From contig JAMSLZ010000008.1 of NCBI GenBank assembly GCA_026027325.1, forward strand, positions 1 through 64,000: DNA of 64,000 nucleotides, written 5' to 3'. Below, piece by piece: positions 1,806-41,386 of the stretch; within the stretch, counting starts at the first letter, position 1; every line of letters begins with the position of its first letter. The notes under the pieces are model-generated. The model was not told the origin of the DNA and did no database searches. It saw only the letters and a program-made list of their open reading frames with translations. The stretch is from Actinomucor elegans (lineage: Eukaryota > Mucoromycota > Mucoromycetes > Mucorales > Mucoraceae). The position numbers and the translations under genes are program-made.

Positions 1806-2204
1806 GAGCAACGTTAAAAATTAAAAAATTAAAATTATTTTTTAAATTAAACAGTGTTTTTTGTAATTATAATTTTTTTTGTTATAACACTTTTTTATTG
1901 TAATTTTTGAAAGTTTGGTAATTAACGTAAAAATAAGAAATTGCAATAATTATGCAAAACTTATAACGATTAAACTTTTATATTACTTTTCAATACAATT
2001 AAACTTTTTTTTCATAATATTTCACACCATATCGAAACCCTGTTGTGCGACAATGTTTTTCTTTTAAAATTGATTAAAAAGCACGTCGTAAGTTTTTTAG
2101 CAACTTACAACTTGATAAATAAAGAAAACTATATAATTTTTATTTAATAATATGAAACTAATTATAATATATATATTAATTACTAATGATATGTAATGTA
2201 GGTC
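1806..2204 (+). mobile_element. Solo terminal repeat of the AT-rich chromodomain transposon (copy C)
   Basis: A 399-bp unit begins GAGCAACGTTA and ends TGTAATGTAGGTC, so its ends form an imperfect inverted repeat of about 11 bp. It matches the repeats at 15633-16033, 17670-18071 and 18205-18606 along its whole length but is the most diverged copy. The flanking triplets are TCT on both sides, a 3-bp target-site duplication. It contains no gene. It could be a solo repeat left by recombination between two direct repeats, or an independent MITE-like insertion. Confidence 0.85.
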
Positions 2205-3241: not shown

Positions 3242-3388
3242 CTATAGCCTTAAGTAATTCTGGAGTGTCTTTTTCATTACCTCTAGCTTTAGGCTTAATA
3301 TTGCTTATTTTACATCATTCCCAAGCCAAATATATTTCAACTTTAAGGTATCCCTGTTTCTAGCCCTAACCCTATCTCTGAAGGTAAA

Positions 3389-5074: not shown

Positions 5075-5087
5075 TGTTATATCCGGT

Positions 5088-5369
5088 GGAGGTCATACAG
5101 ATACTCGCAATTGTTGTACAATTACTCGTACAGGTTCTGGGTTAGTGGATGACCGGGTGCAATAGAATGTGGTTATACAATATGTCTCCGGCATTCCAAA
5201 TATTTCTAGCCGTTTTAAAAATTGGAAATAGCCATTTAAATGGGTACACATATCCAGAGAACATCACAGCAGCCAAAAATATGCCCATGAGTAAATACCT
5301 AAGGTCATCCACTAACCCAGAACCTGTACGAGTAATTGTACAACAATTGCGAGTATCTGTATGACCTCC
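5088..5369 (+). repeat. 282-bp terminal repeat R, left copy of composite 1
   Basis: The repeat begins GGAGGTCATACAG and ends CTGTATGACCTCC. Its first 67 and last 67 bases are perfect reverse complements (5088-5154 and 5303-5369), so the repeat alone has MITE structure. The unique centre (GGGTGCAATAGAATGTGG) fixes its orientation. All four R copies in the window look identical. A 71-codon frame inside it arises from the repeat and is not a gene. Confidence 0.92.
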
Positions 5370-5512
5370 TAGTGGGATATCTCACCACACACTGGTAGAC
5401 ATACGTTCCATAGCAAGGTAGTAGAGAGGGGGGGGGGCCAAAAGGGATGATCTTGTCCAGAGACCTGAATAGTTTCAGCCCCCCCTGGGAATGGAAACTA
5501 AGGAGCCTAAGG
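5370..5512 (+). repeat. 143-bp inner inverted repeat, left arm
   Basis: It runs from TAGTGGGATATCTCACC to GAGCCTAAGG and is repeated inverted at 7067-7208. The arms differ mainly in homopolymer length (a G run of 10 and a C run of 6-7). It lies between the R repeat and the 3' end of the transposase gene. Confidence 0.88.
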
Positions 5513-5577
5513 TTGTAGTACGAGTAACATGTGTTGACAGTTGGGCGAAGCTTTTAAAAAGAATCCCCTTGTGGAAC

Positions 5578-6987
5578 CTACTTCTTCCGCCTTCTTCTAA
5601 CGTCTTTCTCATACTCGATAATAATATCAGAGTCGTCGAAGTTGTTAGGAGAAAGCCAACTATTGCTACTCTCATCATAGCCTACCCACCTAACCAAATA
5701 CTCTCTACGATGCTTTGGTCCACGATGCCCAACAATGGCCTCAACCTCGTAGTGTCCTTGTGGTAAGTCCTCGTCGATGGGTTCGTCATCAGAGCCATTA
5801 TCTTCGTTCACCCCCAAAGAGAGAAACTGCTGCTGTATTTCTTTTACCATCTCAGCATCTTGGGACTTTTCCGCAATTGTAAGGGTACTTACTACGTCAT
5901 AGACATTCTTACTGCTGCCATTTGGAAAGTCGAAGTTAGGCTGCATCCAAAAAGTATGTTGTTCAGAGCTAGAAACACACCCAATGTTAACAAACTTCTT
6001 GATGTTTGCAAGAAGACATGCAAGCTTGAACTGTACCGTGAATGTCTCCATCTCGGTAACTCGAATAACGCCTTTACCGTTGAATCGTTGAAATAAGGTT
6101 CCAATCTCTCCAAACGTTGCTTCTATCGAGGAACGAAAGCTTCCAAGAATGGAGTTGTAATTAACTTCTTCTTGTTTCAGACCCACTCCTCGAGACTTAC
6201 GGATAGGGAATACAAAATTATGGCGATCCAGGTGACGATTATTTGCTACAATACGATCTATAAAAGTAGTGTATCCACCATCAACGACAACACAATCGTA
6301 CTTACTAATCTTCTTCTTCAACCGCATATCAGCAAGCATAGACCCATCGTTGTTATCTGAACATGGTGCCGCATCGGAGACAAACAACACCATCCCATTA
6401 ACATCTGTACATACTTGTGTTCGGAAGCCAGACTTCTTAAGCTTATACGAATAGAACATGGCATGATCTGCAGCGTTGATATATGTTGCTCTAGAATCAT
6501 GTCCATCTATCATCAAGGTAACATGCTTAAAATCTTCAGGGTTTCGGTGAAGAGCACACATAATTCGCAGCTTTGTTGAGGAGAACATCTTTCGTAGGCA
6601 ATAGTCCAAACAGGTATTCAGCTCCTCTCCGTATTTTGTATAAAAGGCATTGTAAATAGCATGGTAGCTACTAGAAGGGATGAAACGTGCCATATGCGCA
6701 ATAGAACAACCGGTAAGAAGCTGGTAGATTATCAACAATCCTTTGTCCACGTTGGAATATGGACCAGGATATTCTTGGTTTGCAAACAGCTCTACGAGAA
6801 AGAAAAAAACAGGTATGTAGCCAAGATGCTCCAACACATAAGTTTTTACATGCTGGATATCTTTTACAGGCTTAACCTCAGACCGGTGATACTTAGTCTT
6901 TTCCAACACTGGCCAATCTTTAGAAAGAAACTGCCAGTAAGTCGCCATAAGCAACGTAAACGCATCTACTATTTCTTTCGGAAACAT
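5578..6987 (-). CDS. DDE transposase with C-terminal chromodomain
   Basis: 469-residue open frame, ATG to stop, no intron seen. The catalytic pattern resembles PIF/Harbinger (IS5-like, DDE_4) transposases. D161 lies in LMIDGHDSR, D236 in VVVDGGYTTF, and E289 in RSSIEATFGEIGTLFQRF. Residues about 412-460 form a chromodomain (YEVEAIVGHR, then EYLVRWVGY and SNSW), a module that binds methylated histone tails. A basic tail (RRRRKK) may act in nuclear import. The homologous AT-rich protein at 16218-17669 keeps the same triad and chromodomain. The gene is bounded by 143-bp inverted repeats, so regulatory signals probably lie inside them. An almost identical copy is at 39487-40896. Superfamily placement is by motif only; the transposase role is strongly supported by the TSD. 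Confidence 0.88.
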   Translation of the reverse strand: MFPKEIVDAFTLLMATYWQFLSKDWPVLEKTKYHRSEVKPVKDIQHVKTYVLEHLGYIPVFFFLVELFANQEYPGPYSNVDKGLLIIYQLLTGCSIAHMARFIPSSSYHAIYNAFYTKYGEELNTCLDYCLRKMFSSTKLRIMCALHRNPEDFKHVTLMIDGHDSRATYINAADHAMFYSYKLKKSGFRTQVCTDVNGMVLFVSDAAPCSDNNDGSMLADMRLKKKISKYDCVVVDGGYTTFIDRIVANNRHLDRHNFVFPIRKSRGVGLKQEEVNYNSILGSFRSSIEATFGEIGTLFQRFNGKGVIRVTEMETFTVQFKLACLLANIKKFVNIGCVSSSEQHTFWMQPNFDFPNGSSKNVYDVVSTLTIAEKSQDAEMVKEIQQQFLSLGVNEDNGSDDEPIDEDLPQGHYEVEAIVGHRGPKHRREYLVRWVGYDESSNSWLSPNNFDDSDIIIEYEKDVRRRRKK

Positions 6988-7066
6988 GTTTATTTAAGAA
7001 TGCTGTAGTATAATAGGAGTTGTATGCTACCAAATGCTGTTGTTCACTCCCAGTCCTACAGTGTAG

Positions 7067-7208
7067 CCTTAGGCTCCTTAGTTTCCATTCCCAGGGGGGC
7101 TGAAACTATTCAGGTCTCTGGACAAGATCATCCCTTTTGGCCCCCCCCCCTCTCTACTACCTTGCTATGGAACGTATGTCTACCAGTGTGTGGTGAGATA
7201 TCCCACTA
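7067..7208 (-). repeat. 143-bp inner inverted repeat, right arm
   Basis: Reverse complement of 5370-5512. It starts CCTTAGGCTCC beside the 5' side of the transposase gene and ends CCCACTA directly against the right R repeat. Confidence 0.88.
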
Positions 7209-7490
7209 GGAGGTCATACAGATACTCGCAATTGTTGTACAATTACTCGTACAGGTTCTGGGTTAGTGGATGACCGGGTGCAATAGAATGTGGTTATACA
7301 ATATGTCTCCGGCATTCCAAATATTTCTAGCCGTTTTAAAAATTGGAAATAGCCATTTAAATGGGTACACATATCCAGAGAACATCACAGCAGCCAAAAA
7401 TATGCCCATGAGTAAATACCTAAGGTCATCCACTAACCCAGAACCTGTACGAGTAATTGTACAACAATTGCGAGTATCTGTATGACCTCC
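7209..7490 (+). repeat. 282-bp terminal repeat R, right copy of composite 1
   Basis: Same sequence and same orientation as 5088-5369, so the two R copies are direct repeats although each has inverted ends. GGT follows at 7491, the second copy of the target duplication (the first is 5085-5087). Confidence 0.92.
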
Positions 7491-7983
7491 GGTGCTAAAG
7501 ACGAAGGATATAATTTAAAATACAATAATAAAAGAATAGACAGTAAATGGAATCAGCTATCCTGATAGTAAAAGTTATTCTAATCTTTATTCACAATTCA
7601 AAATCAAGTCTTCTTTATATACATTTCATCAGAGCTTAATAGTGTAGCATTCAATATCTATCAGCACGCATGGCCGTACAACGGAGTCCAATCCCAGCAG
7701 CCACTAATAAGCCTTTCAACCACGCATTGTTGTAATTGTATAACCCACGCGTTATTCGATATTCAGGTCTTATCTTGAGATACACTCGATACTACTCGAT
7801 AGTATGATGCCGCGTGTTTCTTGTAAGGATTATTGGCTAATAGTTCTAAGGATGACACATCGCTTGTATTTATGCAGGCCTCGTTAATCTGATTGGGTTA
7901 TCAGATAGAGTCCGTGTATGACATAAATGAACAGTTGATTCCTTACTATTATGTCGATGCAGAATAGTAGGTGGAATACAACA

Positions 7984-8211
7984 ATTATTGTAGTTCTTTA
8001 TTTATTCTTTTGTTTTTTTAACATTTTTTTTTCTTATCTTACATTTTTATTTTGCTTTGTATCTTATCCTTTATAAATTATTTTATTTCTCTCTTAAATT
8101 TATGTCTTTCGTTATGTATATAATCGATTTTTTTTTTCGCTTTTTGCCATAAAGTTGTTTCATAATTTTATTCATGTTTAATATTCATATTTTTTTTTTT
8201 ATATTTCATGG
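7984..8211. other. T-rich spacer, probable continuation of decayed subtelomere
   Basis: Starts with ATTAT (right duplication of the LTR4 insertion) and continues as T-biased sequence like 4300-5074. No gene was seen. Confidence 0.4.
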
Positions 8212-8374
8212 TGCGGTAAAATTAAAATATAAAAGCAGGTAGTAAGTCGATTATAACTTGGTTATAGTTTATTCAACTTAAATGTGATCAATTCTTTCTA
8301 ACTAGTTTTTCTAGCTTGTATTTATACTCGTTGAATTGTGACTGAAGGTTATTTATTTGTGTTCATATAAGAAG
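8212..8374 (-). repeat. Older LTR1 solo LTR, left fragment
   Basis: The CA-end half of an LTR1-family LTR (minus orientation), broken at AGAAG (8370-8374). The rest is at 14383-14526. The two pieces add up to exactly one 302-bp LTR once the 5-bp duplication is counted once. It differs from the invading element by a few bases (GATCAATTC versus GATTAGTTC). The flanks CATGG and GTTTG do not match, so this older LTR has lost its own duplication. Confidence 0.9.
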
Positions 8375-8676
8375 TGCGGTAAAATTAAAATATAAAAGCA
8401 GGTAGTAAGTCGATTATAACTTGGTTATAGTTTATTCAACTTAAATGTGATTAGTTCTTTCTAACTAGTTTTTCTAGCTTGTATTTATACTCGTTGAATT
8501 GTGACTGAAGGTTATTTACTTGTGTTCATATAAGAAGTATAAGAAGGACGTATCTCTGTTTAAGGACTGTATCGCTGTATAAGGTAATCAATGATGCTTT
8601 AGTATGTATGTGCTACAGCTAGGGCGCACAGGCCTCTAGTCTGTCTGTACTTCAATTATGTGGCTATTTCACCACA
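8375..8676 (-). repeat. LTR1, 3' LTR of element 1
   Basis: 302 bp. In the element's sense it starts TGTGGTGAAATAG and ends TTTTACCGCA (TG...CA termini). It is bordered on the inside by a polypurine tract. Confidence 0.93.
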
Positions 8677-8690
8677 TGCTCCCCCACTAG
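8677..8690 (-). promoter_or_regulatory. Polypurine tract of element 1
   Basis: In the element's sense the bases TAGTGGGGGAGCA directly precede the 3' LTR. This is the expected position and composition for the plus-strand primer in reverse transcription. Elements 3 and 4 have similar G5 tracts at the same place. Confidence 0.75.
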
Positions 8691-8938
8691 AGTCAGTGCA
8701 CACTGAGTCGACATTAGTAAAGAATAACAAGAAGTTGTATCTACGTGTTATGTTGTTTTTTGTTCTCCAGTGATTCAATTTTACCAGGTTTATTTTTACT
8801 GTAGTATGATATCAACTGCTGAGATACAATTTCCAAGGCATAACTGCGTGACAGTATATTATTATATTTTTTTGTTTAGTTTTGTATATTGACCGGGCAA
8901 GTGAGAACTTAAAATGTTTCTTTCACTGTTGCGTGTCA

Positions 8939-11900
8939 TTACTTCCTGCTTCTTTTACTACGTCTAGTCTGTGATATGGGATGATTTAAATCAGTTACCT
9001 CACCAGTTCGCATTCTCTTATTATTCGACACATTATCAGATTTTTGATCAGTAATTGTGTTCTTAGTTGGTGATTTGGTATGAGTTTTCTTTTGGTAAGT
9101 GTCTTTCAACCTTTCCTTTGCTAATCGCTTTGACTGTCTAACCTTTTCCCAATACTTTTCGATAGTGACAGGAGACGAAAATGCATCAACTGAGATCCAG
9201 TCATTTTCTCGTTCACCATAGCCTACCCATTTTACAAGATATAACCTTTGGCCATTTTCATCTTTATGGTCTCGTATCTCCTCGACTTCAAACAGTTCTT
9301 CTTCTATAGCAGATTCGTCAATAGATACGACTTTGAGTTCTGAGGGTACATATTCACGATGTAATAGTTCATTCGACTCGTCCTTCAATACATAGGTGCC
9401 AGCACGTGTCTTTCGAACTACAGTATATGGCCCATCATATAGAGGCGATAACGATGTTGGTCGACCACCTTGTAATTTGACCATTACAGGAGTGTCTATT
9501 GGGATATCAATAATGCGATGCTTCTTGTTGAAATCCTCATTGTACTTTTCGACGATCTTACGTGTTCTCTCTTCAACAGCAGGAAATACAACGTCAGCCA
9601 TGTAATCAGCTCTCTTTACCAGTTCTTTTACTGATACAGGATTCTTTTTGCCCTTCATTTTAGGATCATGATTTGTGCTCAAGTCTACTTGTCTAGCAAA
9701 CATTAACGAAAATGGTGTACTAGCAGTGCGATCTCTTACTTTGATATTGCAGCATAATTGTACAAGTCCTAGCCTTTCGTCCCAGTTACTTGTATCATTA
9801 CCACAAAGTTTCCGCAGTGTGTTTTTCACCATCTGCACGGATCTCTCAGCAGCACCATTGGATTGAGGATAATAAGGTGTAGAGAATCGGTGCTGGATGC
9901 CCAAGGTATTGGTTAATGTATGCATCAATCCGTTCCTGAATTCCCTTCCGTTATCGCTACCAATGATGTCAGGTAATCCATAGTCAGCAAAGATATTAAT
10001 CAAAGCTTTAGCTACGGTATCACTTTGTTTGTTGGGTATAGGTCTAGTGATAATATATTTGGTGCAAATATCGACAAGTACTAGCCCATATATGTTACCA
10101 GCCTCAGTTACAGGAAGTGGTCCAAAGAGATCCATTGTTACATGACTGAATGGTTCGAATGCAACTATAGATTTTTGTGGATTGAAACCCTTCTTGGATA
10201 CATTGTGAAGTGCACATTCTTTGCAGCGTGAAAGGATATCTTTGCAGTCAGCGTAGATGGTATTCCAATGTAACCCCTGGTAAGTGTGGATGTGCTTTAC
10301 TACACTCTCAATACCGAAATGTCCAAGTGCATGTGCATCGTGGATGATTTGATCTCTCTCGTGGGCTGGAGGACAAGCATACTCTGTTCCTTTAGATTTG
10401 AAGTCTTTACTATTAAGCTTCACCGCGAGGATGTTCAAACGTTTATCTTTCGAGTAGATCTTCTTTTTATGAATAAATCTATCTTTGTCATTGTTAGATG
10501 AAGCTCTTCTTAGTAAGATGTATTTCTCTAATCGTTTAATATTGCGATCCTGCTCCCCCTCCAGCGTTTGATCTTCAATAATAGGAGGGTAAACGCGAGA
10601 TAGTGCATCAGGTAGTTTATTGGCAATGCCTTTTAAGTGAACTACATTCAGATTGAATTGTCCAATAACATCCATATAAGATTGTAATGTACTGTTCAAC
10701 GTGGTAGACGTGAACATGTAAGTAAGAGCCATATGATCAGTGAGCACCTCGATAGGTAATGGATGCCCCCATAGCAAAGGTCTAAATCTGATCAATCCGA
10801 ATACAATTGCAGCAGTTTCGCGTCTATTGGTGGACCAATTGCGCTCAGCCGAATTGAGAGACTTGCTAATGAAAGCAATGTGTACAGTTCTATTAAATTC
10901 ATCTCTTTGAGTGAGTGCACAAGCTATCCCATATACAGATGCGTCTGTCTCCAGATAAAATTTCTTGGATAGATCAGGCTGGTGAAGCACGGCATTAGAC
11001 ACAAGAATCTGTTTAATCCGATTGAATCGATCAGTATGTAAAGACGTCCATTTGGTTTGTACATCCTTATCATTACGTAGTTGATCTAAAGGTGCAGCTA
11101 CTTTACTAAGCATAGGACAGTAATCCCTTAAATGAGAAATCACACCCATAATACTTCGTACTTGTGCAGCGTTTTTAGGAATTGGCCATTTATCAATGTT
11201 TGAAAGTCGTCTGTGATCGATCTTTGTAATGCCAGGTCCAACAATAAAGCCCAATAAATATAATGCCGTTCGAAACCATGTGCATTTGTCGGGATTGATC
11301 TTTAAATTTACAGAAGTCAATCTTTCGAGCACTGTGTTTATCAATTTAATATGTTCTTCTATCGTTTCACTATAGAGTACACAATCATCTACATATGTTT
11401 CTACTCCTTCTAAGTCTCCCAAGAGGATGTTCATAACCCTGCAGTATTGGCTTGTAAGAAAGCTTAATCCGAAGGGCGCGTGGCACCATTTGTAGTTTAT
11501 ATGATTATAAGAGAATGATAATACTTCTCTACTAGCCTCATCAACAGCGAAAGAGTAATAAGCCTGTTTGAGATCAATTTTAGACATGATTTTTGCCTTT
11601 TTTGAGACTCTATCGAAGATCTCAGTAATTTTTGGTACAGCAAAATTTTCTTGTAAGTCTTCTGAAATAGATGCGTTGATTTTTCTCAAATCACAACAAA
11701 TGCGTAGCTTTGTGAGTTTGTCATTTTCATCCTTTTTAGGTACAGCTAATAATGGTGAATGAAATCTAGCGCTAGGCTTGGATTTTTCAACTATACCGTT
11801 GTCCAACCACTCTTTGAGTTGTTTCTCTATTTCTGCTTTCGCATGAACAGGTAATGGGTATTGTCTTACATAGCAATTAGCGCCACTTTTCATCGGAATC

Positions 11901-14050
11901 TTCACAATTGATTCAGGTATAGTGCATACCGCTTTAGGTTTTATAGTAGCATTTTTGTTAATTGAAGCCTGAATCATTTTCATATACTCTTTTCTTTGTT
12001 CAGTGTTTCCATATAGTGCATTGTCAGGGTCATAATGCTTGTCATTATCGAAGTTAACGTTTTCAAACTGTTTACTTTCTTTTGCAATGTCATTAGGCCA
12101 GTTAAAAGCAACGCCTCCAAGATAGATATTCATCTTTGGTAATATATCAGTACCTAAGAGTACGTCAAATTCAGTTTCCATAACGTCACTAAATTCTACG
12201 ACTTCAAAAGCATGTTTAAAGGATATATTATTTGTGTATGTAACAGTCATAGGTCGTGTTTTACCGATCCTTTTAGCTTTACTATTTTTGCCTTCGTTAT
12301 TGAGTGCTAAAAAATTTAGATAACCATTCACTTTGTTTATGTGTATATCAGAAAAGTCTTTATTCAATATCTTTTTATTAATACAAGCTACATCACTCCC
12401 GCTATCCACCTTGGCAACGAGTCTACGACCCTCTATATAAATGGGTGTCATTAGATTAAATGTACTTCTTGTATTATGTGATTTATCATCATCGAACTTA
12501 CAATCATAGTTGAGGTCTTCCATCGCCTCTTTGACCTTCTTATCTTCGTCTTCCTCCGAGACCAGAGTGTCAGCACGAATTGCAAGAACTGAGGGACCAG
12601 GATGGTTAGCCCTCATGGCTTGTCTGTATTCTTGGCAAGAATGCCCTCTGAACCAAGGCTTCTTGCAAAAACGGCAGGGATTGTTACCGTTTGCCCTTAA
12701 AGGTGCATTGTTATTCCCCAAAAATGTAAATGGTCTAGACCCAGATGGTGTCATAGATCCAGCACGACCAGAAGAAGAAGAGGACGAAGAAGCGTGCTTG
12801 GCAATGCTGAAACAGTTGCGTTCATCATGGTTGGATAGCTTACCACCATGGCGAGGGCAGTAGAAACGATCAATCGTGGACGCAGAAGTGGGACTGGTGG
12901 TACGTTTGTGATGATAAAAATCTTCAGCCTTACGTTTGCCTTTGTTGATGTTATGTGAGCCTTGAGGCGAGGCCATATCAGCGCCGAAACCACCCTTGGA
13001 TCTTGACAAACCATTTTCATTGGCTAATGAACCAGGGACTTGTTGGCCATACACATTGAGAGCAGCTGCAGCGATATCACTTACAATCCAAGTAGTAGAG
13101 TTCTTGCCATTAGAATGCAATACTGTATTAATTGCGGGTTGCCAAGCTTGGGGAAGTGCATACATAAAAGCATCAGCAATGGTATTGTCAAACTTGCTGT
13201 AGCCTGCTTCACTTGCAGCACGAGTAAATCTCAAGTTGAATGAGTTGATTGTTTCATTGGTGCGAATACGCATATTCATCACCAAACGCCTAGCATCCAG
13301 TTTGTCTTGAGCCCCACCAAAGGTATCCAAGAATACTTTTCGAGCCGTTTCCCAAGTATCTTGTACAAGCAAATCACCTTTCATCCATACGTCATAATCC
13401 ATAGCTAGAGTACCTTGAATGTACTGCTTCCAAGTGCGTTCAACATCATTGCCAGTTGAAATAAGAGTCTTTTCAAATGTGCGTAAAAAGTGTTCTACTG
13501 AGTTGTATACCGTTTCGCCTGGGTAGTAAACAGTATCACCAGTCAGTTGGAACTTGGGCAGATCTCTGGGAGCCAAACGCATGAGGATAGTAGTATCACC
13601 GTTATTAGTAGCAGGAGCTCTCTCCGTGGGCATGGCTTCGGATACAGCTTTGTGGATTTGAATTTTCCTGTTGGCGGTCACCATTACATCGATATGCTTA
13701 TTGTAGGTATCGATGCACTTGATCAGCCTTTCCATTTCACGGTCATACGCCTCGGGATCATTACCAAGAAGTTCAGCACCATCAGAGATGAGGAGACTAG
13801 CATATCTCTGAGAAGCTACAGTTCGGCGATCCATTAAAATATTGATAGCTAGATCACCAATGGGCCCCTTTTCCTCTTTATGATCCTCAGACATAGCCAT
13901 GACTGATTCAGTAGTCTTAGCCTGACTAAGTTCGGATACGTTACCAGTTTCAATACCTTCCATAGTTTCTTCAGCAGCACAAGTAGCAGTGGGAGTATTA
14001 GCCAGAAGGTCAGGTACAGTAACCGGAGTGGTAGAGTTGTTTTGAGACAT
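8939..14050 (-). CDS. Gag-Pol polyprotein of chromovirus element 1
   Basis: A single 1703-residue frame. Gag occupies about residues 1-480 and ends in a zinc-knuckle-like CRFCKKPWFRGHSC (about 457). The aspartic protease motif DSGS is near 547. Reverse transcriptase has YVDD near 885, and RNase H has TDAS near 1036. Integrase has an HHCC zinc-binding part, then catalytic D (TMDLFGPLP, about 1305), D (IGSDNGREF, about 1366) and E (about 1400). A GPY/F-type segment (GPYTVVRKTRAGTYVL) and a chromodomain (about 1590-1637, LYLVKWVGYGERENDW) follow. The C-terminus is basic. Gag and Pol are fused without a frameshift, so the Gag to Pol ratio must be set after translation. The chromodomain is expected to guide integration to heterochromatin. 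No break was seen. Confidence 0.93.
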   Translation of the reverse strand: MSQNNSTTPVTVPDLLANTPTATCAAEETMEGIETGNVSELSQAKTTESVMAMSEDHKEEKGPIGDLAINILMDRRTVASQRYASLLISDGAELLGNDPEAYDREMERLIKCIDTYNKHIDVMVTANRKIQIHKAVSEAMPTERAPATNNGDTTILMRLAPRDLPKFQLTGDTVYYPGETVYNSVEHFLRTFEKTLISTGNDVERTWKQYIQGTLAMDYDVWMKGDLLVQDTWETARKVFLDTFGGAQDKLDARRLVMNMRIRTNETINSFNLRFTRAASEAGYSKFDNTIADAFMYALPQAWQPAINTVLHSNGKNSTTWIVSDIAAAALNVYGQQVPGSLANENGLSRSKGGFGADMASPQGSHNINKGKRKAEDFYHHKRTTSPTSASTIDRFYCPRHGGKLSNHDERNCFSIAKHASSSSSSSGRAGSMTPSGSRPFTFLGNNNAPLRANGNNPCRFCKKPWFRGHSCQEYRQAMRANHPGPSVLAIRADTLVSEEDEDKKVKEAMEDLNYDCKFDDDKSHNTRSTFNLMTPIYIEGRRLVAKVDSGSDVACINKKILNKDFSDIHINKVNGYLNFLALNNEGKNSKAKRIGKTRPMTVTYTNNISFKHAFEVVEFSDVMETEFDVLLGTDILPKMNIYLGGVAFNWPNDIAKESKQFENVNFDNDKHYDPDNALYGNTEQRKEYMKMIQASINKNATIKPKAVCTIPESIVKIPMKSGANCYVRQYPLPVHAKAEIEKQLKEWLDNGIVEKSKPSARFHSPLLAVPKKDENDKLTKLRICCDLRKINASISEDLQENFAVPKITEIFDRVSKKAKIMSKIDLKQAYYSFAVDEASREVLSFSYNHINYKWCHAPFGLSFLTSQYCRVMNILLGDLEGVETYVDDCVLYSETIEEHIKLINTVLERLTSVNLKINPDKCTWFRTALYLLGFIVGPGITKIDHRRLSNIDKWPIPKNAAQVRSIMGVISHLRDYCPMLSKVAAPLDQLRNDKDVQTKWTSLHTDRFNRIKQILVSNAVLHQPDLSKKFYLETDASVYGIACALTQRDEFNRTVHIAFISKSLNSAERNWSTNRRETAAIVFGLIRFRPLLWGHPLPIEVLTDHMALTYMFTSTTLNSTLQSYMDVIGQFNLNVVHLKGIANKLPDALSRVYPPIIEDQTLEGEQDRNIKRLEKYILLRRASSNNDKDRFIHKKKIYSKDKRLNILAVKLNSKDFKSKGTEYACPPAHERDQIIHDAHALGHFGIESVVKHIHTYQGLHWNTIYADCKDILSRCKECALHNVSKKGFNPQKSIVAFEPFSHVTMDLFGPLPVTEAGNIYGLVLVDICTKYIITRPIPNKQSDTVAKALINIFADYGLPDIIGSDNGREFRNGLMHTLTNTLGIQHRFSTPYYPQSNGAAERSVQMVKNTLRKLCGNDTSNWDERLGLVQLCCNIKVRDRTASTPFSLMFARQVDLSTNHDPKMKGKKNPVSVKELVKRADYMADVVFPAVEERTRKIVEKYNEDFNKKHRIIDIPIDTPVMVKLQGGRPTSLSPLYDGPYTVVRKTRAGTYVLKDESNELLHREYVPSELKVVSIDESAIEEELFEVEEIRDHKDENGQRLYLVKWVGYGERENDWISVDAFSSPVTIEKYWEKVRQSKRLAKERLKDTYQKKTHTKSPTKNTITDQKSDNVSNNKRMRTGEVTDLNHPISQTRRSKRSRK

Positions 14051-14073
14051 AGTGTAGTTGTTAAGTTTAATCG

Positions 14074-14080
14074 AAAAAAA
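14074..14080 (-). promoter_or_regulatory. T7 tract at the primer-binding position of element 1
   Basis: In the element's sense the 5' LTR end ACCGCA is followed directly by seven T and then CGATTAAAC. A tRNA primer site would start with TGG (complement of CCA), and none is present. The same T7-T8 tract follows the 5' LTRs of elements 2, 3 and 4. Confidence 0.5.
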
Positions 14081-14382
14081 TGCGGTAAAATTAAAATATA
14101 AAAGCAGGTAGTAAGTCGATTATAACTTGGTTATAGTTTATTCAACTTAAATGTGATTAGTTCTTTCTAACTAGTTTTTCTAGCTTGTATTTATACTCGT
14201 TGAATTGTGACTGAAGGTTATTTACTTGTGTTCATATAAGAAGTATAAGAAGGACGTATCTCTGTTTAAGGACTGTATCGCTGTATAAGGTAATCAATGA
14301 TGCTTTAGTATGTATGTGCTACAGCTAGGGCGCACAGGCCTCTAGTCTGTCTGTACTTCAATTATGTGGCTATTTCACCACA
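14081..14382 (-). repeat. LTR1, 5' LTR of element 1
   Basis: 302 bp, identical by eye to 8375-8676. It is expected to hold the promoter. A TATAAATA-like box (in the element's sense GAGTATAAATACAAG) lies in its centre. Confidence 0.92.
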
Positions 14383-14526
14383 AGAAGTATAAGAAGGACG
14401 TATCTCTGTTTAAGGACTGTATCGCTGTATAAGGTAATCAATGATGCTTTAGTATGTATGTGCTACAGCTAGGGCGCACAGGCCTCTAGTCTGTCTGTAC
14501 TTCAATTATGTGGCTATTTCACCACA
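14383..14526 (-). repeat. Older LTR1 solo LTR, right fragment
   Basis: Begins AGAAGTATAAG (duplicated target of element 1) and ends TTCACCACA. It completes the LTR started at 8212-8374. Confidence 0.9.
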
Positions 14527-15053
14527 GTTTGTACAAGGTGGTTACTGAGATATATTTGTTAATGGAGTACATTATGATGATGATTATGTTTTAAGACGGA
14601 ACTTATTATGTGCGAGATCTTAGTTCAGCACAGAACCTGTAAAATATCCAAAGCTTACTTTTGGTAGCACCACGACTTAGAAGCAAGAATGACACTACAA
14701 AAGGCGCTGATAGTAGCAGTTAGGAAACAGGCAGAAGAAACTCCTTCCCTGAAGATAACATAGATGAGGTTACCAAACAATCAACTATAACTACACACTT
14801 ACTTATAATGGAATACATTTATGAAAGCATTACCACATTGCTGCTAAGAAACGTTGTCCTGGCACCACATATCTCACACGGTAAGCTTACTTAGGTACGC
14901 TGAAGAACTCGAAAGTAAAAACATTGAGTGAAAAAAAAAAAAAAAGGTTTGAGTGTTTTACATAAATTTAAAATAGGAATAGACAGGGAACTACGAATGA
15001 TAACAACACAAAATATTATTGGCATATAATATTGATTCCAGATTGTTGTATTC
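14527..15053. repeat. Spacer with second copy of a diverged dispersed repeat
   Basis: About 14640-14890 resembles the reverse strand of 2491-2770. No intact reading frame was found and no gene is called. An A14 run lies at about 14932-14945. Confidence 0.4.
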
Positions 15054-15353
15054 CACCTACTATCTTGCATCGACATAATAGTAAGGAATCAACTGTTCAT
15101 TTATGTCATACACGGACTCTACCTGATAACCCAATCAGATTAACGAGGCCTGCATAAATACAAGCGATGTGTCATCCTTAGAACTATTAGCCAATAATCA
15201 TTACAAGAAACACGCAGCATCATACTATCGAGTAGTATCAAAAGTGTATCTCAAGATAAGACCTGAATATCGAATAACGCGTGGGTTATACAATTACAAC
15301 AATGCGTGGTTGAAAGGCTTATTAGTGGCTGCTGGGATTGAACTCCGTTGTAC
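15054..15353 (-). repeat. LTR4 LTR, left piece broken by the CACTA element
   Basis: Begins TGTTGTATTCCACC and follows the reverse orientation of LTR4 until CCGTTGTAC, where the CACTA terminus begins. The missing continuation (TACGGCCATGCG...) is at 43603-43725. The shared TAC (15351-15353 and 43603-43605) is the 3-bp duplication. Confidence 0.85.
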
Positions 15354-15632
15354 CACTATGGGAAAAAAAAGTGAAATAAAGTGAATTCATGGCAAAATCA
15401 AGTGAATTTCAAGTGAATTAGTGCTTTCACCTGAATTTAAAGTGAAATAAAGTGAATTTCATGGCAACTTGGAAACCAGGTTAATGCACCTTAACTTTTA
15501 TTTCCATTATTTTTCCATGAATTTCCATGTTTCCCAATTGGAGTGAATATGGAGCTAGTTCGAGTAAATTGTATGTTAAACTAAACAGTGAAGCAGAACT
15601 CTGGTTTCAACGAATATAAGACAGCATTGATA
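15354..15632 (+). mobile_element. CACTA-type transposon, left end and subterminal repeats
   Basis: The end reads CACTATGGGAAAAA, and its inverted match is the end at 43602 (14 bp identical). The next 200 bp carry many AGTGAATT and AGTGAAAT words in both orientations. Subterminal motif arrays, a CACTA first pentamer and a 3-bp duplication are the defining marks of CACTA/EnSpm elements. The Tnp2-like transposase remnant at 18105-20402 fits the same element. The body is now filled with later insertions up to 43602. Confidence 0.8.
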
Positions 15633-16033
15633 GAGCAACGTTAAAAATAAAAAAAAATAAAAATTAGTTTTTAAATTAAATAGTGTTTTTTGTAATTATA
15701 TTTTTTTTGTTTAACACTTTTTTATTGTAATTTTTGAAAGTTTGGTAATTAACGTAAAAATAAGAAATTGCAATAATTATGCAAAACTTATAAAGATTAA
15801 ACTTTTATATTACTTTTCAATACAATTAAACTTTTTTTTTTCATAATATTTCACACCAGATCGAAACCCTGTTGTGCGACAATTTTTTTCTTTTAAAATT
15901 GATTAAAAAGCACGTCGTAAGTTTTTTAGCAACTTACAACTTGATAAATAAAGAAAACTATATAATTTTAATTTAATAATATAAAAATAATTATAATATA
16001 TATATTAATTATTAATGGTATGTAATGTAGCTC
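15633..16033 (+). repeat. Terminal repeat A of the AT-rich composite
   Basis: 401 bp, GAGCAACGTTA to TGTAATGTAGCTC. The ends form an imperfect 11-bp inverted repeat (GAGCWACRTTA). It is identical to repeat B apart from about one base in a T run, so the two copies share a recent origin. Confidence 0.9.
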
Positions 16034-16217
16034 TTATATAAAAATTGCTCTTTGTTTTTGATTCATAGTATCAATTTTTATTTTATTTTTTGCCAAATGT
16101 TTGAATGTTTAATATTAAAATAATTATAATTATAATCATTTCTGTAACATTAATTCAAACTCAATTACTTTTTTCTAAAAAATTGAATTATTATATAAAT
16201 AAAAATAAGAACATCTT

Positions 16218-17669
16218 ATGACAATTGAAATAGAGGAACTATTAGAAAATGAATATGAAGAGATTAAAACAAATTATTGGAAATTTTTAGATAATACATA
16301 TAAATCTAATATTGAAAAACAATATCATAGAAGTAAAATAGGAAATTTTATTAACATTCAAAATATAAAAAAAGAATTATATGAACTATTAGGTGCAATT
16401 CCTATATTTGTATTTTTAACAGAAATTTGTAGTAAAATTAAAATGCCATCACCAGTATATAATGTAGAAAAAGGAATTTTGATTTTAAAATTATTAGTAG
16501 ATGGTTGTTCCATTAATGATATGAAAATTTATGATGAGAATGATTCTTTTTATAGAATTTATAAATCTGTTTTTATTGATAATATAGATTTTTTAGAAAA
16601 TTGGGTTAATAATACGATGTTTTATTGTTTTAGCAACAGCATTACTAGATTATTATATAGTAAATTATACAATCCTAAAAATTTTGAACATTGTACATTA
16701 CTTTTAGATGGAAGACATAATAGAATAGTAATTGAAGATATTGATTTAAATAAAAAAGATTTATATTCTTATAAATTAAAGAAAAATGCATTAAACACCC
16801 AATTTATTATAGATTCAGCAGGATATATCATCTATGTTTCAGAATCATTACCATGTAAATTTAATAATGACGATAATATGTTTATTAATAATATAAATTT
16901 AATGAAATTTTTTAAACTGACAGATTGTTTATGCTATGATGGATTATATGAAAATGTATTAGATGAAATTTTAAAAAAATATAATAATGTAGGATTACAT
17001 ATTACAGAAAATAACTTTTGTTTTCCAATAAAAAAAGAAAAAAATATTGATTTAGATGTTGATGAATTAAATTTTAATAAACAATTAGGATCATATAGAA
17101 GTACCATTGAAACTTTTTTTGCAAAATTTTCAAATATATTCAAAAGATTTAGCTACAAAGCCAATGCAAGAATTACAAAAGAAAAAACATATAACATTCA
17201 GATTAAATTAGCATTAGTTTTATTTAATATCAAAAACTTTGTAGAAAAAAATAATATAGAAGAAAAATCTTATTATAAACTATGGATGGAAAAAGATTTT
17301 GATTTTTTTGATACTATTAAGGATTTTAATATCGAAACTAAATCAATAAAGGCGGTATATAAAAAAGAAAATATAATGAATATGAAAAGTTTACAGGATG
17401 ATCTTCTAAATAAACTTTTATCTGATAATAATTTTAAAATCAGCTTAACTAAAAATAAAATGCAAATTGATAATGATGATAATAATACTAGTACTGATAA
17501 AAATGTATATGAGATACAATATATAATACAACATAGAAAAATAAATAATGAATATGAATATGAGGTAAAATGGAGAAATTATAAAAAACAAGTAAACAGT
17601 TGGATTAAAGAAAGTGACTTTCAAACAAAAGATATTCTAAAGAATTATTGGGATTCTATCAATGTCTAA
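16218..17669 (+). CDS. AT-rich DDE transposase with chromodomain
   Basis: 483 codons, intact, with extreme A/T use (AAA, AAT, TTA and ATA codons dominate). It aligns end to end with the GC-balanced transposase at 5578-6987. The shared blocks are an N-terminal YHRS, then LLLDGRHNR (D164), CYDGLYENV (D241) and RSTIETFFAKFSNIFKRF (E298), and a C-terminal chromodomain at about 431-478 (EYEVKWRNYKKQVNSW). The stop codon TAA ends one base before repeat B begins, so termination and polyadenylation signals must lie inside the repeat. The start codon is 184 bp inside repeat A. Intactness despite the base composition argues against RIP-like decay. It is either a lineage with strong mutation bias or a transfer from an AT-rich genome. 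Confidence 0.85.
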   Translation: MTIEIEELLENEYEEIKTNYWKFLDNTYKSNIEKQYHRSKIGNFINIQNIKKELYELLGAIPIFVFLTEICSKIKMPSPVYNVEKGILILKLLVDGCSINDMKIYDENDSFYRIYKSVFIDNIDFLENWVNNTMFYCFSNSITRLLYSKLYNPKNFEHCTLLLDGRHNRIVIEDIDLNKKDLYSYKLKKNALNTQFIIDSAGYIIYVSESLPCKFNNDDNMFINNINLMKFFKLTDCLCYDGLYENVLDEILKKYNNVGLHITENNFCFPIKKEKNIDLDVDELNFNKQLGSYRSTIETFFAKFSNIFKRFSYKANARITKEKTYNIQIKLALVLFNIKNFVEKNNIEEKSYYKLWMEKDFDFFDTIKDFNIETKSIKAVYKKENIMNMKSLQDDLLNKLLSDNNFKISLTKNKMQIDNDDNNTSTDKNVYEIQYIIQHRKINNEYEYEVKWRNYKKQVNSWIKESDFQTKDILKNYWDSINV

Positions 17670-18071
17670 GAGCAACGTTAAAAATAAAAAAAAATAAAAA
17701 TTAGTTTTTAAATTAAATAGTGTTTTTTGTAATTATATTTTTTTTTGTTTAACACTTTTTTATTGTAATTTTTGAAAGTTTGGTAATTAACGTAAAAATA
17801 AGAAATTGCAATAATTATGCAAAACTTATAAAGATTAAACTTTTATATTACTTTTCAATACAATTAAACTTTTTTTTTTCATAATATTTCACACCAGATC
17901 GAAACCCTGTTGTGCGACAATTTTTTTCTTTTAAAATTGATTAAAAAGCACGTCGTAAGTTTTTTAGCAACTTACAACTTGATAAATAAAGAAAACTATA
18001 TAATTTTAATTTAATAATATAAAAATAATTATAATATATATATTAATTATTAATGGTATGTAATGTAGCTC
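17670..18071 (+). repeat. Terminal repeat B of the AT-rich composite
   Basis: 402 bp, same orientation as repeat A. It starts immediately after the transposase stop codon and ends GTAGCTC followed by ATA. Confidence 0.9.
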
Positions 18072-18104
18072 ATAGTATAGAATAAATTTATATATGTACT
18101 TGGT

Positions 18105-20402
18105 TTAATAAGGTCTCCAAGCAACATATGTTTTGTCTTTATTTAATAAAGAAGGTATAAGTATAGCATATCCTATTATGTCCTTGGCTTTGATTATTTT
18201 CCATGAGCAACGTTAAAAATAAAAAAAAATAAAAATTAGTTTTTAAATTAAATAGTGTTTTTTGTAATTATATTTTTTTTTGTTCAACACTTTTTTATTG
18301 TAATTTTTGAAAGTTTGGTAATTAACGTAAAAATAAGAAATTGCAATAATTATGCAAAACTTATAAAGATTAAACTTTTATATTACTTTTCAATACAATT
18401 AAACTTTTTTTTTTCATAATATTTCACACCAGATCGAAACCCTGTTGTGCGACAATTTTTTTCTTTTAAAATTGATTAAAAAGCACGCCGTAAGTTTTTT
18501 AGCAACTTACAACTTGATAAATAAAGAAAGCTATATAATTTTAATTTAATAATATGAAAATAATTATAATATATATATTAATTATTAATGATATGTAATG
18601 TAGCTCCATAGGAGCCTTTCTTCATAGGGTTGCGTATAATAGCAGCATGTTTGTCCATCAAACACTAAAGTCGTTTGATGTTGTAATAAGGCAAGTATTT
18701 GATCTTTCCATCTAATAAACTGCTTTACTTGGCCTATATTATATTGTAAGGACATAGTATCATCTGATATGTATGCAACTATCTTTTGGTTTTGTTTTCT
18801 TGAAGAAATATCAACGGTTTGGCCATTCCTCGTTTTACCGTAAGTATTAGAAGTAGAAACAGAGTACTCCTCTTCTGTTGAACTGGAACCATTATGATCG
18901 GCTAGATATTGCTGGATTAGATGCTTAATATCACACGTTGGAAATAATTGGTTGATTAAGTCAGCAGAAGAAGGTTTAAATACCATATCTTCATCAACAC
19001 TATGGCTTTCAATTCCAATCTGCCAGTTTTTATACGCTTTTGTGTAGTGATCCATTAGAACAATGACAGAGTTTTTTTGAGGATTTTGTTTAGACTTGAT
19101 ATGTCTTTTTACATCTTGAATACTTCTTTCAAGAGTTCGGGCGCTTATCAATCTAAGTGGACCAAGCTGAAAAATAATATAGGACAAATGTTTTAGATAA
19201 TGCTGGTTAATGGTAAATGTATCTTTTCCCATCTTCTGCAGTAAAAACGCATGCCATCTTTTTACTAATCTAGAATGAAAAGACGATATAAATTATCGAA
19301 AACTTAGCATAGCTGCACGTAGTAGTCTCTCAAAAAAAAAACTTACTCATCAATCCGTAACAGATCACTTGGATATATGTTGAATTTTTGGGTCAAAGTG
19401 CAGACCATGGATATTGATTTCAAAGCATTGCACGCATCATCAACAGCTTCCAGTACAGGAGAAGCTACCTTTCTCTTCTTTTTTCTATTTCTTTCGGTTT
19501 GGTAAATATCAGCATGTTGTTTTCGTAACGCCTCCACTACCAAAGTGGGTACTATGTACATTAAAAAATCAATCCAGTCAACGCTACGAGATTGGCCTGA
19601 TTTGGAAGAAATATCTAAGTGAAGAAAAAAGCAAGGATATTAATTCATTGGAATAATTAGCATTAAGTTTCTTGAGTTAATCTCTAATACCTATAAATTG
19701 ACCATCAATGGCTCCATTTGGAAGCATTCGTTGTATTTGAACCATTGCTCTGCCAATTTCTTCTCTATAGGCGTTCCGAAGGAACAAAGGGTTATAGTAT
19801 CCGAATCTCTGAGAGTCATCCTTCATCATGGACCATATGTGCTTGGCTATATTCATTCCCCATAAGTGCATCTCATCTAATCCAAAAAATGAACATCCAT
19901 GAAAGCTTTTTAATAATGCAAATGGCAATTTCCCTTTGAGTGAAGTAGCCTAGATAGTTAATCAAATCATACTGCATTAGACACTGATACAGTTACTATT
20001 GTTTAATTTATTAAGCTTCTTACCAAGTCACCGTTTTGATAATGAAGAACATTTAGTATTACAGAAATATGTTCAAAATAGTACAATATATAAAAAAATT
20101 AGGAAATAATAGATTTTTTTGAATACAAATAATAATATAAATAAATTTTATTCTAAAATAGAACAAGTAACCAACATTTTATTTATGGATAAAAAGGCAA
20201 CATTATATTTATGCCTTGATTTTTTAGGAAAGTTAAAAATATTAAGTAGTTGTAAATGTTTATCAATCCTCAGAAGTCCTTAATGGGTATTCAATGGGCT
20301 CTTGTGCTTCATTTGTTCCAGGAAAAACTATAGTCCTTTTTGATTTGGAATAAATGCCTTTGATCTTGCAAATGCGGCATCCATGGTAAGGATTATGGCC
20401 AG
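18105..20402 (-). pseudogene. Tnp2-like (CACTA) transposase remnant, multi-exon
   Basis: Exons read right to left. GHNPYHGCRICKIKG (20270-20401) is a cysteine motif seen in Tnp2 transposases. ALLKSFHGCSFFGLDEMHLW (19677-19950) follows, then VDWIDFLMYIVPTLVVEALR (19343-19600). The last is a DUF4218-like part with HYLKHLSYIIFQLGPLR and ARTLERSIQDVKRHIKSK (18607-19260). Splice signals GTAAG and AG separate them. The 3' exon is interrupted at 18606 by solo repeat D. Removing the repeat and one CAT duplication rejoins the frame, which then ends at the TAA at 18105. The 5' half is missing: the LTR1 element at 20403 cuts it, and no continuation is found on the far side. This was probably the transposase of the CACTA element whose ends are at 15354 and 43602. 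Confidence 0.75.
18205..18606 (+). mobile_element. Solo terminal repeat of the AT-rich transposon (copy D, TSD CAT)
   Basis: 402 bp, GAGCAACGTTA to TGTAATGTAGCTC, differing from repeats A and B by a handful of substitutions. CAT precedes and follows it. It lies inside the last exon of the Tnp2-like gene, and excision with one CAT restores the reading frame exactly. This fixes both ends and the duplication length from coding evidence. Confidence 0.9.
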
Positions 20403-27667: not shown

Positions 27668-27878
27668 ATCGATCAGGATGTATCCCAAAGGAACTCCCAG
27701 GTTTTTAAAAATGTCCGAGATGGATAAAATAAATAAAATACATTTTGATTTTTAATCAAAAAATTATTATTTCATTTGGAGAATTCCTTAAATATATTAT
27801 TTTAAATAAATTGAATTTTTATATAAATAAAAAAAAAGACAATCTAAAAAATTAAAAATAATTGCAGTTGTTAATAAA

Positions 27879-38981: not shown

Positions 38982-39263
38982 GGAGGTCATACAGATACTC
39001 GCAATTGTTGTACAATTACTCGTACAGGTTCTGGGTTAGTGGATGACCGGGTGCAATAGAATGTGGTTATACAATATGTCTCCGGCATTCCAAATATTTC
39101 TAGCCGTTTTAAAAATTGGAAATAGCCATTTAAATGGGTACACATATCCAGAGAACATCACAGCAGCCAAAAATATGCCCATGAGTAAATACCTAAGGTC
39201 ATCCACTAACCCAGAACCTGTACGAGTAATTGTACAACAATTGCGAGTATCTGTATGACCTCC
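38982..39263 (+). repeat. 282-bp terminal repeat R, left copy of composite 2
   Basis: Identical by eye to 5088-5369, including the 67-bp perfect inverted ends and the central GGGTGCAATAG orientation. Confidence 0.92.
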
Positions 39264-39407
39264 TAGTGGGATATCTCACCACACACTGGTAGACATACGT
39301 TCCATAGCAAGGTAGTAGAGAGGGGGGGGGGGGCCAAAAGGGATGATCTTGTCCAGAGACCTGAATAGTTTCAGCCCCCCTGGGAATGGAAACTAAGGAG
39401 CCTAAGG
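39264..39407 (+). repeat. Inner inverted repeat of composite 2, left arm
   Basis: TAGTGGGATATC to GAGCCTAAGG with a G run of 12. Here it adjoins the 5' side of the transposase gene, the reverse of copy 1. The right arm ends at 41104 (C run of 11). Confidence 0.85.
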
Positions 39408-39486
39408 CTACACTGTAGGACTGGGAGTGAACAACAGCATTTGGTAGCATTCAACTCCTATTATACTACAGCATTCTTAAATAAAC

Positions 39487-40896
39487 ATGTTTCCGAAAGA
39501 AATAGTAGATGCGTTTACGTTGCTTATGGCGACTTACTGGCAGTTTCTTTCTAAAGATTGGCCAGTGTTGGAAAAGACTAAGTATCACCGGTCTGAGGTT
39601 AAGCCTGTAAAAGATATCCAGCATGTAAAAACTTATGTGTTGGAGCATCTTGGCTACATACCTGTTTTTTTCTTTCTCGTAGAGCTGTTTGCAAACCAAG
39701 AATATCCTGGTCCATATTCCAACGTGGACAAAGGATTGTTGATAATCTACCAGCTTCTTACCGGTTGTTCTATTGCGCATATGGCACGTTTCATCCCTTC
39801 TAGTAGCTACCATGCTATTTACAATGCCTTTTATACAAAATACGGAGAGGAGCTGAATACCTGTTTGGACTATTGCCTACGAAAGATGTTCTCCTCAACA
39901 AAGCTGCGAATTATGTGTGCTCTTCACCGAAACCCTGAAGATTTTAAGCATGTTACCTTGATGATAGATGGACATGATTCTAGAGCAACATATATCAACG
40001 CTGCAGATCATGCCATGTTCTATTCGTATAAGCTTAAGAAGTCTGGCTTCCGAACACAAGTATGTACAGATGTTAATGGGATGGTGTTGTTTGTCTCCGA
40101 TGCGGCACCATGTTCAGATAACAACGATGGGTCTATGCTTGCTGATATGCGGTTGAAGAAGAAGATTAGTAAGTACGATTGTGTTGTCGTTGATGGTGGA
40201 TACACTACTTTTATAGATCGTATTGTAGCAAATAATCGTCACCTGGATCGCCATAATTTTGTATTCCCTATCCGTAAGTCTCGAGGAGTGGGTCTGAAAC
40301 AAGAAGAAGTTAATTACAACTCCATTCTTGGAAGCTTTCGTTCCTCGATAGAAGCAACGTTTGGAGAGATTGGAACCTTATTTCAACGATTCAACGGTAA
40401 AGGCGTTATTCGAGTTACCGAGATGGAGACATTCACGGTACAGTTCAAGCTTGCATGTCTTCTTGCAAACATCAAGAAGTTTGTTAACATTGGGTGTGTT
40501 TCTAGCTCTGAACAGCATACTTTTTGGATGCAGCCTAACTTCGACTTTCCAAATGGCAGCAGTAAGAATGTCTATGACGTAGTAAGTACCCTTACAATTG
40601 CGGAAAAGTCCCAAGATGCTGAGATGGTAAAAGAAATACAGCAGCAGTTTCTCTCTTTGGGGGTGAACGAAGATAATGGCTCTGATGACGAACCCATCGA
40701 CGAGGACTTACCACAAGGACACTACGAGGTTGAGGCCATTGTTGGGCATCGTGGACCAAAGCATCGTAGAGAGTATTTGGTTAGGTGGGTAGGCTATGAT
40801 GAGAGTAGCAATAGTTGGCTTTCTCCTAACAACTTCGACGACTCTGATATTATTATCGAGTATGAGAAAGACGTTAGAAGAAGGCGGAAGAAGTAG
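39487..40896 (+). CDS. DDE transposase with C-terminal chromodomain, second copy
   Basis: 469 residues, intact and virtually identical to 5578-6987. It has candidate catalytic D161, D236 and E289, and a chromodomain at about 412-460. Two intact, near-identical copies 34 kb apart indicate recent activity or gene conversion. The 5' leader (39408-39486) ends AAATAAACATG. Confidence 0.88.
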   Translation: MFPKEIVDAFTLLMATYWQFLSKDWPVLEKTKYHRSEVKPVKDIQHVKTYVLEHLGYIPVFFFLVELFANQEYPGPYSNVDKGLLIIYQLLTGCSIAHMARFIPSSSYHAIYNAFYTKYGEELNTCLDYCLRKMFSSTKLRIMCALHRNPEDFKHVTLMIDGHDSRATYINAADHAMFYSYKLKKSGFRTQVCTDVNGMVLFVSDAAPCSDNNDGSMLADMRLKKKISKYDCVVVDGGYTTFIDRIVANNRHLDRHNFVFPIRKSRGVGLKQEEVNYNSILGSFRSSIEATFGEIGTLFQRFNGKGVIRVTEMETFTVQFKLACLLANIKKFVNIGCVSSSEQHTFWMQPNFDFPNGSSKNVYDVVSTLTIAEKSQDAEMVKEIQQQFLSLGVNEDNGSDDEPIDEDLPQGHYEVEAIVGHRGPKHRREYLVRWVGYDESSNSWLSPNNFDDSDIIIEYEKDVRRRRKK

Positions 40897-41104
40897 GTTC
40901 CACAAGGGGATTCTTTTTAAAAGCTTCGCCCAACTGTCAACACATGTTACTCGTACTACAACCTTAGGCTCCTTAGTTTCCATTCCCAGGGGGGCTGAAA
41001 CTATTCAGGTCTCTGGACAAGATCATCCCTTTTGGCCCCCCCCCCCTCTCTACTACCTTGCTATGGAACGTATGTCTACCAGTGTGTGGTGAGATATCCC
41101 ACTA

Positions 41105-41386
41105 GGAGGTCATACAGATACTCGCAATTGTTGTACAATTACTCGTACAGGTTCTGGGTTAGTGGATGACCGGGTGCAATAGAATGTGGTTATACAATAT
41201 GTCTCCGGCATTCCAAATATTTCTAGCCGTTTTAAAAATTGGAAATAGCCATTTAAATGGGTACACATATCCAGAGAACATCACAGCAGCCAAAAATATG
41301 CCCATGAGTAAATACCTAAGGTCATCCACTAACCCAGAACCTGTACGAGTAATTGTACAACAATTGCGAGTATCTGTATGACCTCC
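41105..41386 (+). repeat. 282-bp terminal repeat R, right copy of composite 2
   Basis: Direct repeat of 38982-39263. It is followed by AAAGCGTTGGG, which is unrelated to the LTR1 element on the left side. Confidence 0.92.

Follow-up and report, generated by a model that had tools for sequence, protein, structure and literature searches.

The window analysed here, a stretch of 64,000 nucleotides of Actinomucor elegans DNA, carries two transposon units of family A and one of family C, in each of which a transposase gene stands between two long repeats, together with solo repeats of family C and of a third family, X, which was absent from the first-pass annotation of this DNA (Table 1). The CCCTAA repeats found at 6-77 indicate that the window begins at or near a chromosome end. 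The C unit and its ATA duplication were confirmed as first annotated, including the short imperfect inverted ends of its direct repeats, and the two solo C repeats likewise have the 3-bp duplications of their own that had been ascribed to them.

Table 1. Positions of the transposon units, their parts and the solo repeats in the window (TSD, target duplication)
Feature	Position	Strand	Details
Solo C repeat, older	1806..2204	+	15 private differences, TSD TCT/TCT
Family A unit, repeat-transposase-repeat	5088..7490	-	TSD GGT at 5085-5087 and 7491-7493
A repeat 1	5088..5369	.	282 bp, 67-bp perfect inverted ends
A internal region	5370..7208	-	own ends form a perfect 115-bp inverted repeat (TAG...CTA)
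A transposase	5578..6987	-	469 aa, DDE_Tnp_4 + Chromo
A repeat 2	7209..7490	.	direct, 100% identical to repeat 1
Family C unit, repeat-transposase-repeat	15633..18071	+	TSD ATA at 15630-15632 and 18072-18074
C repeat 1	15633..16033	+	401 bp
C transposase	16218..17669	+	483 aa, DDE_Tnp_4 + Chromo; repeat 2 begins directly after the stop codon
C repeat 2	17670..18071	+	402 bp, 99.75% identical to repeat 1
Solo C repeat	18205..18606	+	haplotype CGGA, TSD CAT/CAT
Solo X repeat	20044..20264	+	221 bp, identical to X-unit repeats, TSD AAT/AAT
Second A unit	38982..41386	+	direct repeats 38982-39263 and 41105-41386; without target duplication
Transposase of second A unit	39487..40896	+	469 aa

Family A proved less regular than had been thought. 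The description of A units as bounded by identical direct repeats and flanked by 3-bp duplications stands for the first unit, whereas the flanks of the second read ACT and AAA, although its repeats are intact and identical; this second unit has perhaps arisen by exchange between units. Among neighbours within 15 kb of one another in the 40 A-repeat places listed, eight of 15 pairs were direct and seven inverted, and direct orientation is thus not a fixed trait of the family. It is easy to imagine that such flipping was helped by the 67-bp inverted ends of the A repeat. An apparent A dimer, in which two units share a repeat, lies at C21:2358212-2366250, with its neighbours inverted.

Several further observations were made on these sequences. 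Rearranged copies of neighbouring sequence adjoin the second A unit, and an insertion of approximately 1.75 kb is shared by at least six A copies at an identical place (query positions 465-473, with a 9-base overlap at the edges), so that the inserted element seems to travel inside A. Tandem repeats are found at 3290-3877 (98-bp units), where a near-identical array elsewhere (L016) has been hit by a C unit, and at 43275-43547 (39-bp units). An AT-rich stretch at 27733-29180, which contains a 253-amino-acid ORF (open reading frame) and sits between retrotransposon frames, has a leader (27797-27860) 73% like the start of the C transposase gene (16169-16232) and ends in a hairpin (29061-29175); it is possibly another, unrelated mobile element.

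Transposases and repeat pairs in eight families

The A and C proteins of the window matched both PF13359 (DDE_Tnp_4) and PF00385 (Chromo) above the Pfam curated cut-offs, in agreement with the DDE transposase and C-terminal chromodomain originally assigned to the two lineages. A tblastn-type search of the genome (36.5 Mb in 27 contigs) with the C transposase gave at least 89 matches, from 88 scored of 407 candidates, and six further families were each sampled at one locus, at 49, 48, 46, 48, 42 and 38% identity to the query. The transposases of the resulting eight families share 31-56% protein identity, and both domains were matched in all eight, with the DDE_Tnp_4 score above the cut-off in seven and just below it in L065 (24.3 against 24.8). 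Weak matches to IS5 were found in NCBIfam for A and its relatives, and residues D164, D241 and E298 are D, D and E in 24 of 24 aligned relatives. No nuclease was matched in Pfam for the proteins of C, A and the six further families or for the second ORF of family Y, each examined as a single copy. The A and C units hold no second ORF of 150 amino acids or more, and hence no Myb/SANT partner was seen there.

An AlphaFold2 model of the C transposase, built from 24 sequences (mean pLDDT of 82.0 and pTM of 0.77), predicts an RNase H-like core followed by a C-terminal chromodomain. A Foldseek search with this model placed chromodomain chains on top, none of them at E ≤ 0.001, and VIA-align on the core of the model pointed to piggyBac and Tn5. 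A midpoint-rooted tree of unnamed relatives placed A and Y among sequences in which Chromo was not matched, with L066, X, C and L063-L065 on the other side. The units are likely to be DNA transposons that move autonomously, by a DDE transposase of a PF13359 (IS5 / PIF-Harbinger-like) lineage with a C-terminal chromodomain. A further chromodomain-bearing relative was noted at L094:2484-3914, in a contig of 26% GC that is filed under a Bacilli MAG (metagenome-assembled genome) and is probably eukaryotic contamination.

The single plan first recognized in two lineages extends to seven of the eight families, where the one unit read per family is bounded by two long repeats, 220-402 bp in length. 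BLAST self-comparison first drew these terminal direct repeats at 221 bp in X and at 239, 221, 232 and 297 bp in L063, L064, L065 and L066 respectively; the trimmed lengths are 282 (A), 401/402 (C), 221 (X), 239 (L063), 220 (L064), 223 (L065) and 292 bp (L066). Within the unit compared, the two repeats are 100% identical in six families and 99.75% identical in C, whereas between families they align no better than random sequence (0.41-0.59, compared with 0.40-0.55 after shuffling). What the repeats of different families have in common is short local matches and similar termini (GAGAAACG, GAGATACG, GAGCAACG and GAAGAACA), starting with GA or GG and ending with TC or CC, and every repeat bears both a left-type and a right-type end. 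The same succession of repeat, internal region and repeat, with short inverted ends on each repeat, was also found in 20 C units and nine X units.

The eighth family, Y (L067), has no terminal direct repeats. Inverted repeats of 210 bp flank its gene, and next to this gene module comes a second module in which a 194-amino-acid ORF (ORF2), without a Pfam match, is placed between inverted repeats of its own. Both modules were present in 14 copies, including one that an X unit has split, with the gene module oriented one way in ten copies and the other way in four. The outer ends of Y were flanked by a 3-bp duplication in all three copies read (TCT, TAT and AAT). The counter-case that had been envisaged, in which such transposases would be bounded by simple inverted ends without the long repeats, is realized in part: Y has the same kind of transposase between inverted-repeat modules, and roughly half of the A pairs are inverted. 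In addition, L067:4150-4383 is a dispersed repeat with approximately 25 places, found also beside an X unit (L039) and inside an A copy (L059).

Insertion of whole units and of solo repeats

Target duplications were read at 62 sites, namely those of 20 C units, 20 fetched solo C repeats and the two of the window, nine X units, the solo X repeat of the window, four A units, two solo A repeats and a single unit from each of L063-L066; the window's second A unit stands outside this set. A 3-bp duplication was present at 57 sites, the five exceptions being two C units (one with a 4-base match), one X unit, one solo C repeat and one solo A repeat. When the flanks were joined minus one copy of the duplication and compared with the sequences in hand (threshold of 90% identity, with 20 bases or more to either side), 21 of the 62 sites had a counterpart in which the target is uninterrupted and aligns gap-free across the junction: eight of the 20 C units, four of the nine X units, seven of the 20 fetched solo C repeats, the L066 unit and one solo A repeat. 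Examples are the X unit inside Y (L038, uninterrupted in L067) and a C unit in sequence that stands uninterrupted at 24198-24397 of the window; one of the C cases falls in a tandem repeat (L016). Together, the duplications and the uninterrupted targets exclude chance. These data clearly show that the whole unit of repeat, gene and repeat is inserted as one piece by its outer ends with duplication of 3 bp of target, as the first-pass annotation had proposed, and that the paired-repeat architecture is real and general within this genome. The target itself (n=57) comprises many different 3-mers and is closer to YNWWR than to a fixed TWA: the base before the duplication is C or T in 50 cases, the third duplicated base is A or T in 55 and the base that follows is G or A in 48.

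The inner edges of the repeats behave differently from the outer ones. The bases just inside the repeats were constant among the C and X copies read and no duplication was seen there, which disposes of the counter-case that had been envisaged, in which paired repeats would normally carry independent target duplications. In seven of the eight families, Y included, the first repeat or module is followed by TWR and the second preceded by YWA, a pattern that was spotted after the fact; in L066 the corresponding bases are TGG and TAT.

Solo repeats are abundant. A pattern search for the start of the X repeat gave 98 places, comprising 36 pairs at unit spacing and 27 unpaired copies, of which six come from units that are truncated or interrupted; one X repeat is common to two neighbouring pairs and forms a dimer at C22, called by repeat spacing. 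A similar search for the end of the C repeat gave 97 places, comprising 20 pairs and 57 unpaired copies, of which one comes from a truncated unit and one lies at a contig start. Among the unpaired C copies, 22 were read as solo repeats and 21 of these are flanked by a 3-bp duplication, confirming that solo repeats are insertions with a duplication of their own. Among the truncated units listed, none was missing exactly one repeat and none ended at a repeat boundary.

The C repeats vary at four substitution sites and, with homopolymer indels set aside, both repeats of a unit had the same haplotype in all 20 C units, ten being TAAG and ten CGGA, two unit types that differ at internal sites too. 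The two repeats of a unit thus evolve in concert. The C units differ chiefly by homopolymer indels and are very young, and concordance within only two young subfamilies proves at least one homogenization, not one in every round. The solo C repeats present a different picture (n=22), with CGGA in seven, CGGG in six, TAAA in five, TAGA and CAGA in two each and TAAG in none, so that 15 of the 22 have haplotypes found in none of the 20 units (Fisher P=1.9e-6, for copies that are not independent). As the fetched solos were the nearest hits to a TAAG query, their choice does not explain why TAAG is absent, and the six CGGG solos, having no private substitutions, are as young as the units. The six haplotypes fit a chain of single steps in which one site changes twice. 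This distribution favours repeats that also move alone, although unit subfamilies that have since died out could equally have left the solo haplotypes behind.

Relation to known mobile elements

We were initially led to believe that no described class had this architecture, but the accessible parts of the report on KolobokP (Kojima and Bao 2022, PMC9587614) describe one that does. KolobokP comprises animal DNA transposons, listed from seven phyla, in which long terminal direct repeats have short inverted ends of their own and which occur with solo repeats, half units and shared-repeat multimers; its authors compare it with composite transposons and LTR (long terminal repeat) elements. The architecture is therefore not categorically new. 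The same parts of that text report the repeat-gene-repeat plan as unique to KolobokP, give C/DxxH as the signature of the Kolobok superfamily and propose a role for a homing nuclease, which is absent from some KolobokP families (PMC9587614). The units described here resemble KolobokP in the paired long direct repeats with short inverted ends around a DDE transposase gene, in their 5′-RR...YY-3′ termini, in the solo repeats with target duplications, in the repeat-sharing dimers of X and A and in a repeat suspected of independent mobility. They differ from it in having a PF13359 transposase, with the C/DxxH signature in none of 24 aligned proteins, in repeat length (220-402 bp compared with approximately 450 or 660 bp), in the C-terminal chromodomain and the 3-bp duplications, in showing neither a Pfam nuclease nor half units among those listed, and in the inverted arrangements of A and the two inverted-repeat modules of Y.

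What is novel is that the architecture occurs in a different lineage of transposases, one that has a chromodomain, and that related four-ended forms (A and Y) accompany it. As this lineage lacks the Kolobok signature, either the plan arose repeatedly or its age has been underestimated, and the homing nuclease put forward for KolobokP is not required for it. Moreover, seven families that keep identical but mutually unrelated repeat pairs within one small genome offer a direct test of LTR-like repeat regeneration without reverse transcription. A literature search on the key terms of KolobokP gave no other DNA transposon of this kind among the matches listed. In the literature searched, which lies outside most subscription journals and Repbase Reports, we found no transposase of Harbinger type or with a chromodomain reported to have paired terminal repeats, and a search for chromodomain transposases as a phrase gave no match. 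In the accessible parts of a 2024 screen of fungi, chromodomains are named for Mavericks and chromoviruses only (PMC10799480; for context, see PMC12477816).

By their transposase the units resemble PIF/Harbinger elements, part of the PHIS group of Harbinger, ISL2EU, Spy, Pangu, Nuwa and PHISTA as set out in the accessible text of PMC12730594. They share with these the PF13359 domain, the 3-bp target duplications (57 of 62 sites, and three of three in Y) and ends of the GA/GG type. The target consensus of PIF/Harbinger elements is TWA, and the present units are unlike them in that their target is not fixed to it, in their paired long repeats and chromodomain, and in that no Myb/SANT partner was found. 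Bacterial composite transposons, discussed alongside KolobokP in PMC9587614, and the pseudo-compound transposons of IS26 are similar in having two mobile repeats around a passenger with a duplication outside only. A solo repeat left behind and a conceivable one-repeat circle are further points in common; in the present units, by contrast, it is the passenger segment that encodes the transposase, between non-coding repeats, and no circle was seen. In the foldback element FB-NOF of Drosophila, a transposase-bearing segment likewise stands between non-coding mobile repeats; the FB repeats are internally repetitive inverted foldbacks, whereas most of the families described here have simple direct repeats.

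Possible modes of movement and of repeat upkeep

We consider it fairly probable that a single explanation accounts jointly for these findings, namely an autonomous transposon unit whose ends can be used in any pairing, whose repeats are homogenized and whose insertion is steered by the chromodomain. The transposase would recognize any pair of left and right ends, and could thereby mobilize either the whole unit or a single repeat in the manner of a MITE (miniature inverted-repeat transposable element). A cycle of transposition and repair would copy one repeat from the other, via a one-repeat intermediate or gene conversion, and so keep the pair homogeneous, and the chromodomain would direct insertion into repeat-rich chromatin at chromosome ends, where copies cluster. 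Against this joint explanation, excision of a single repeat should leave one-repeat units, of which there were none among those listed; the inverted arrangement of seven of 15 A pairs and the lack of a duplication at five of the 62 sites and at the second A unit also count against it.

A bolder proposal, which we put forward tentatively, is that the non-coding repeat is the true element and the gene its passenger, with a one-repeat circle integrating by a copy-in reaction that is cointegrate-like, or IS26-like. If this were true, each insertion would write two identical repeats, with a duplication outside only, and would leave solo repeats behind. It would also mean that a DDE transposase can drive a cycle like that of LTR elements with no reverse transcription involved, in a second lineage beside KolobokP, and Y and A would record other, four-ended stages of the same design.

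It is rather doubtful that units move only whole, by cut-and-paste, with solo repeats as recombination scars comparable with solo LTRs and with repeat identity due to gene conversion or to youth. A scar would keep the 3-bp duplication, as 21 of 22 solo C repeats do, the X dimer with its shared repeat implies that repeats recombine or exchange unequally, and both the youth of the units, which differ mainly by homopolymer indels, and the absence of one-repeat half units among the truncated units listed are as expected from such a process. However, 15 of 22 solos have haplotypes that are missing from the 20 units, and the six CGGG solos are as young as the units, yet no CGGG unit was found. In addition, the perfect upkeep of the pair in seven families with unrelated repeats suggests that the pair has a function.

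Much less probable still is an opportunistic origin, in which two pre-existing MITE copies came by chance to surround a transposase gene, independently in each family. Each repeat does have MITE-like ends and exists alone, and the repeats are unrelated between families, but the same plan recurs in seven of eight families, and their inner edges follow the common TWR...YWA pattern (seven of eight, post hoc) and in no case have the duplication that a MITE of its own would have made, which renders repeated chance origin unlikely. Finally, an LTR retroelement that has lost its reverse transcriptase, or an artefact of assembly, is scarcely credible: the units look LTR-like, and chromodomains are usual in the integrases of chromoviruses, but the units have no reverse transcriptase, their transposase is of the PF13359 type and their repeats end in GA/GG...TC/CC instead of the TG...CA of LTRs, and dozens of copies stand at separate places, with target duplications that differ and with targets known in uninterrupted form.

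Returning to the joint explanation and the chromatin steering that it would entail, the chromodomain-DDE_Tnp_4 fusion provides a test case for histone-mark-guided insertion of a DNA transposon. Clustering near contig ends may instead reflect retention, with selection against copies elsewhere, rather than targeting. Among contigs of known length, 41 of 71 C loci and 30 of 60 X loci lie less than 100 kb from a contig end, where the expected share is 0.11, and 23 of 62 X loci lie less than 10 kb from a C locus, compared with a mean of 1.9 and a maximum of 7 in 2000 random trials.
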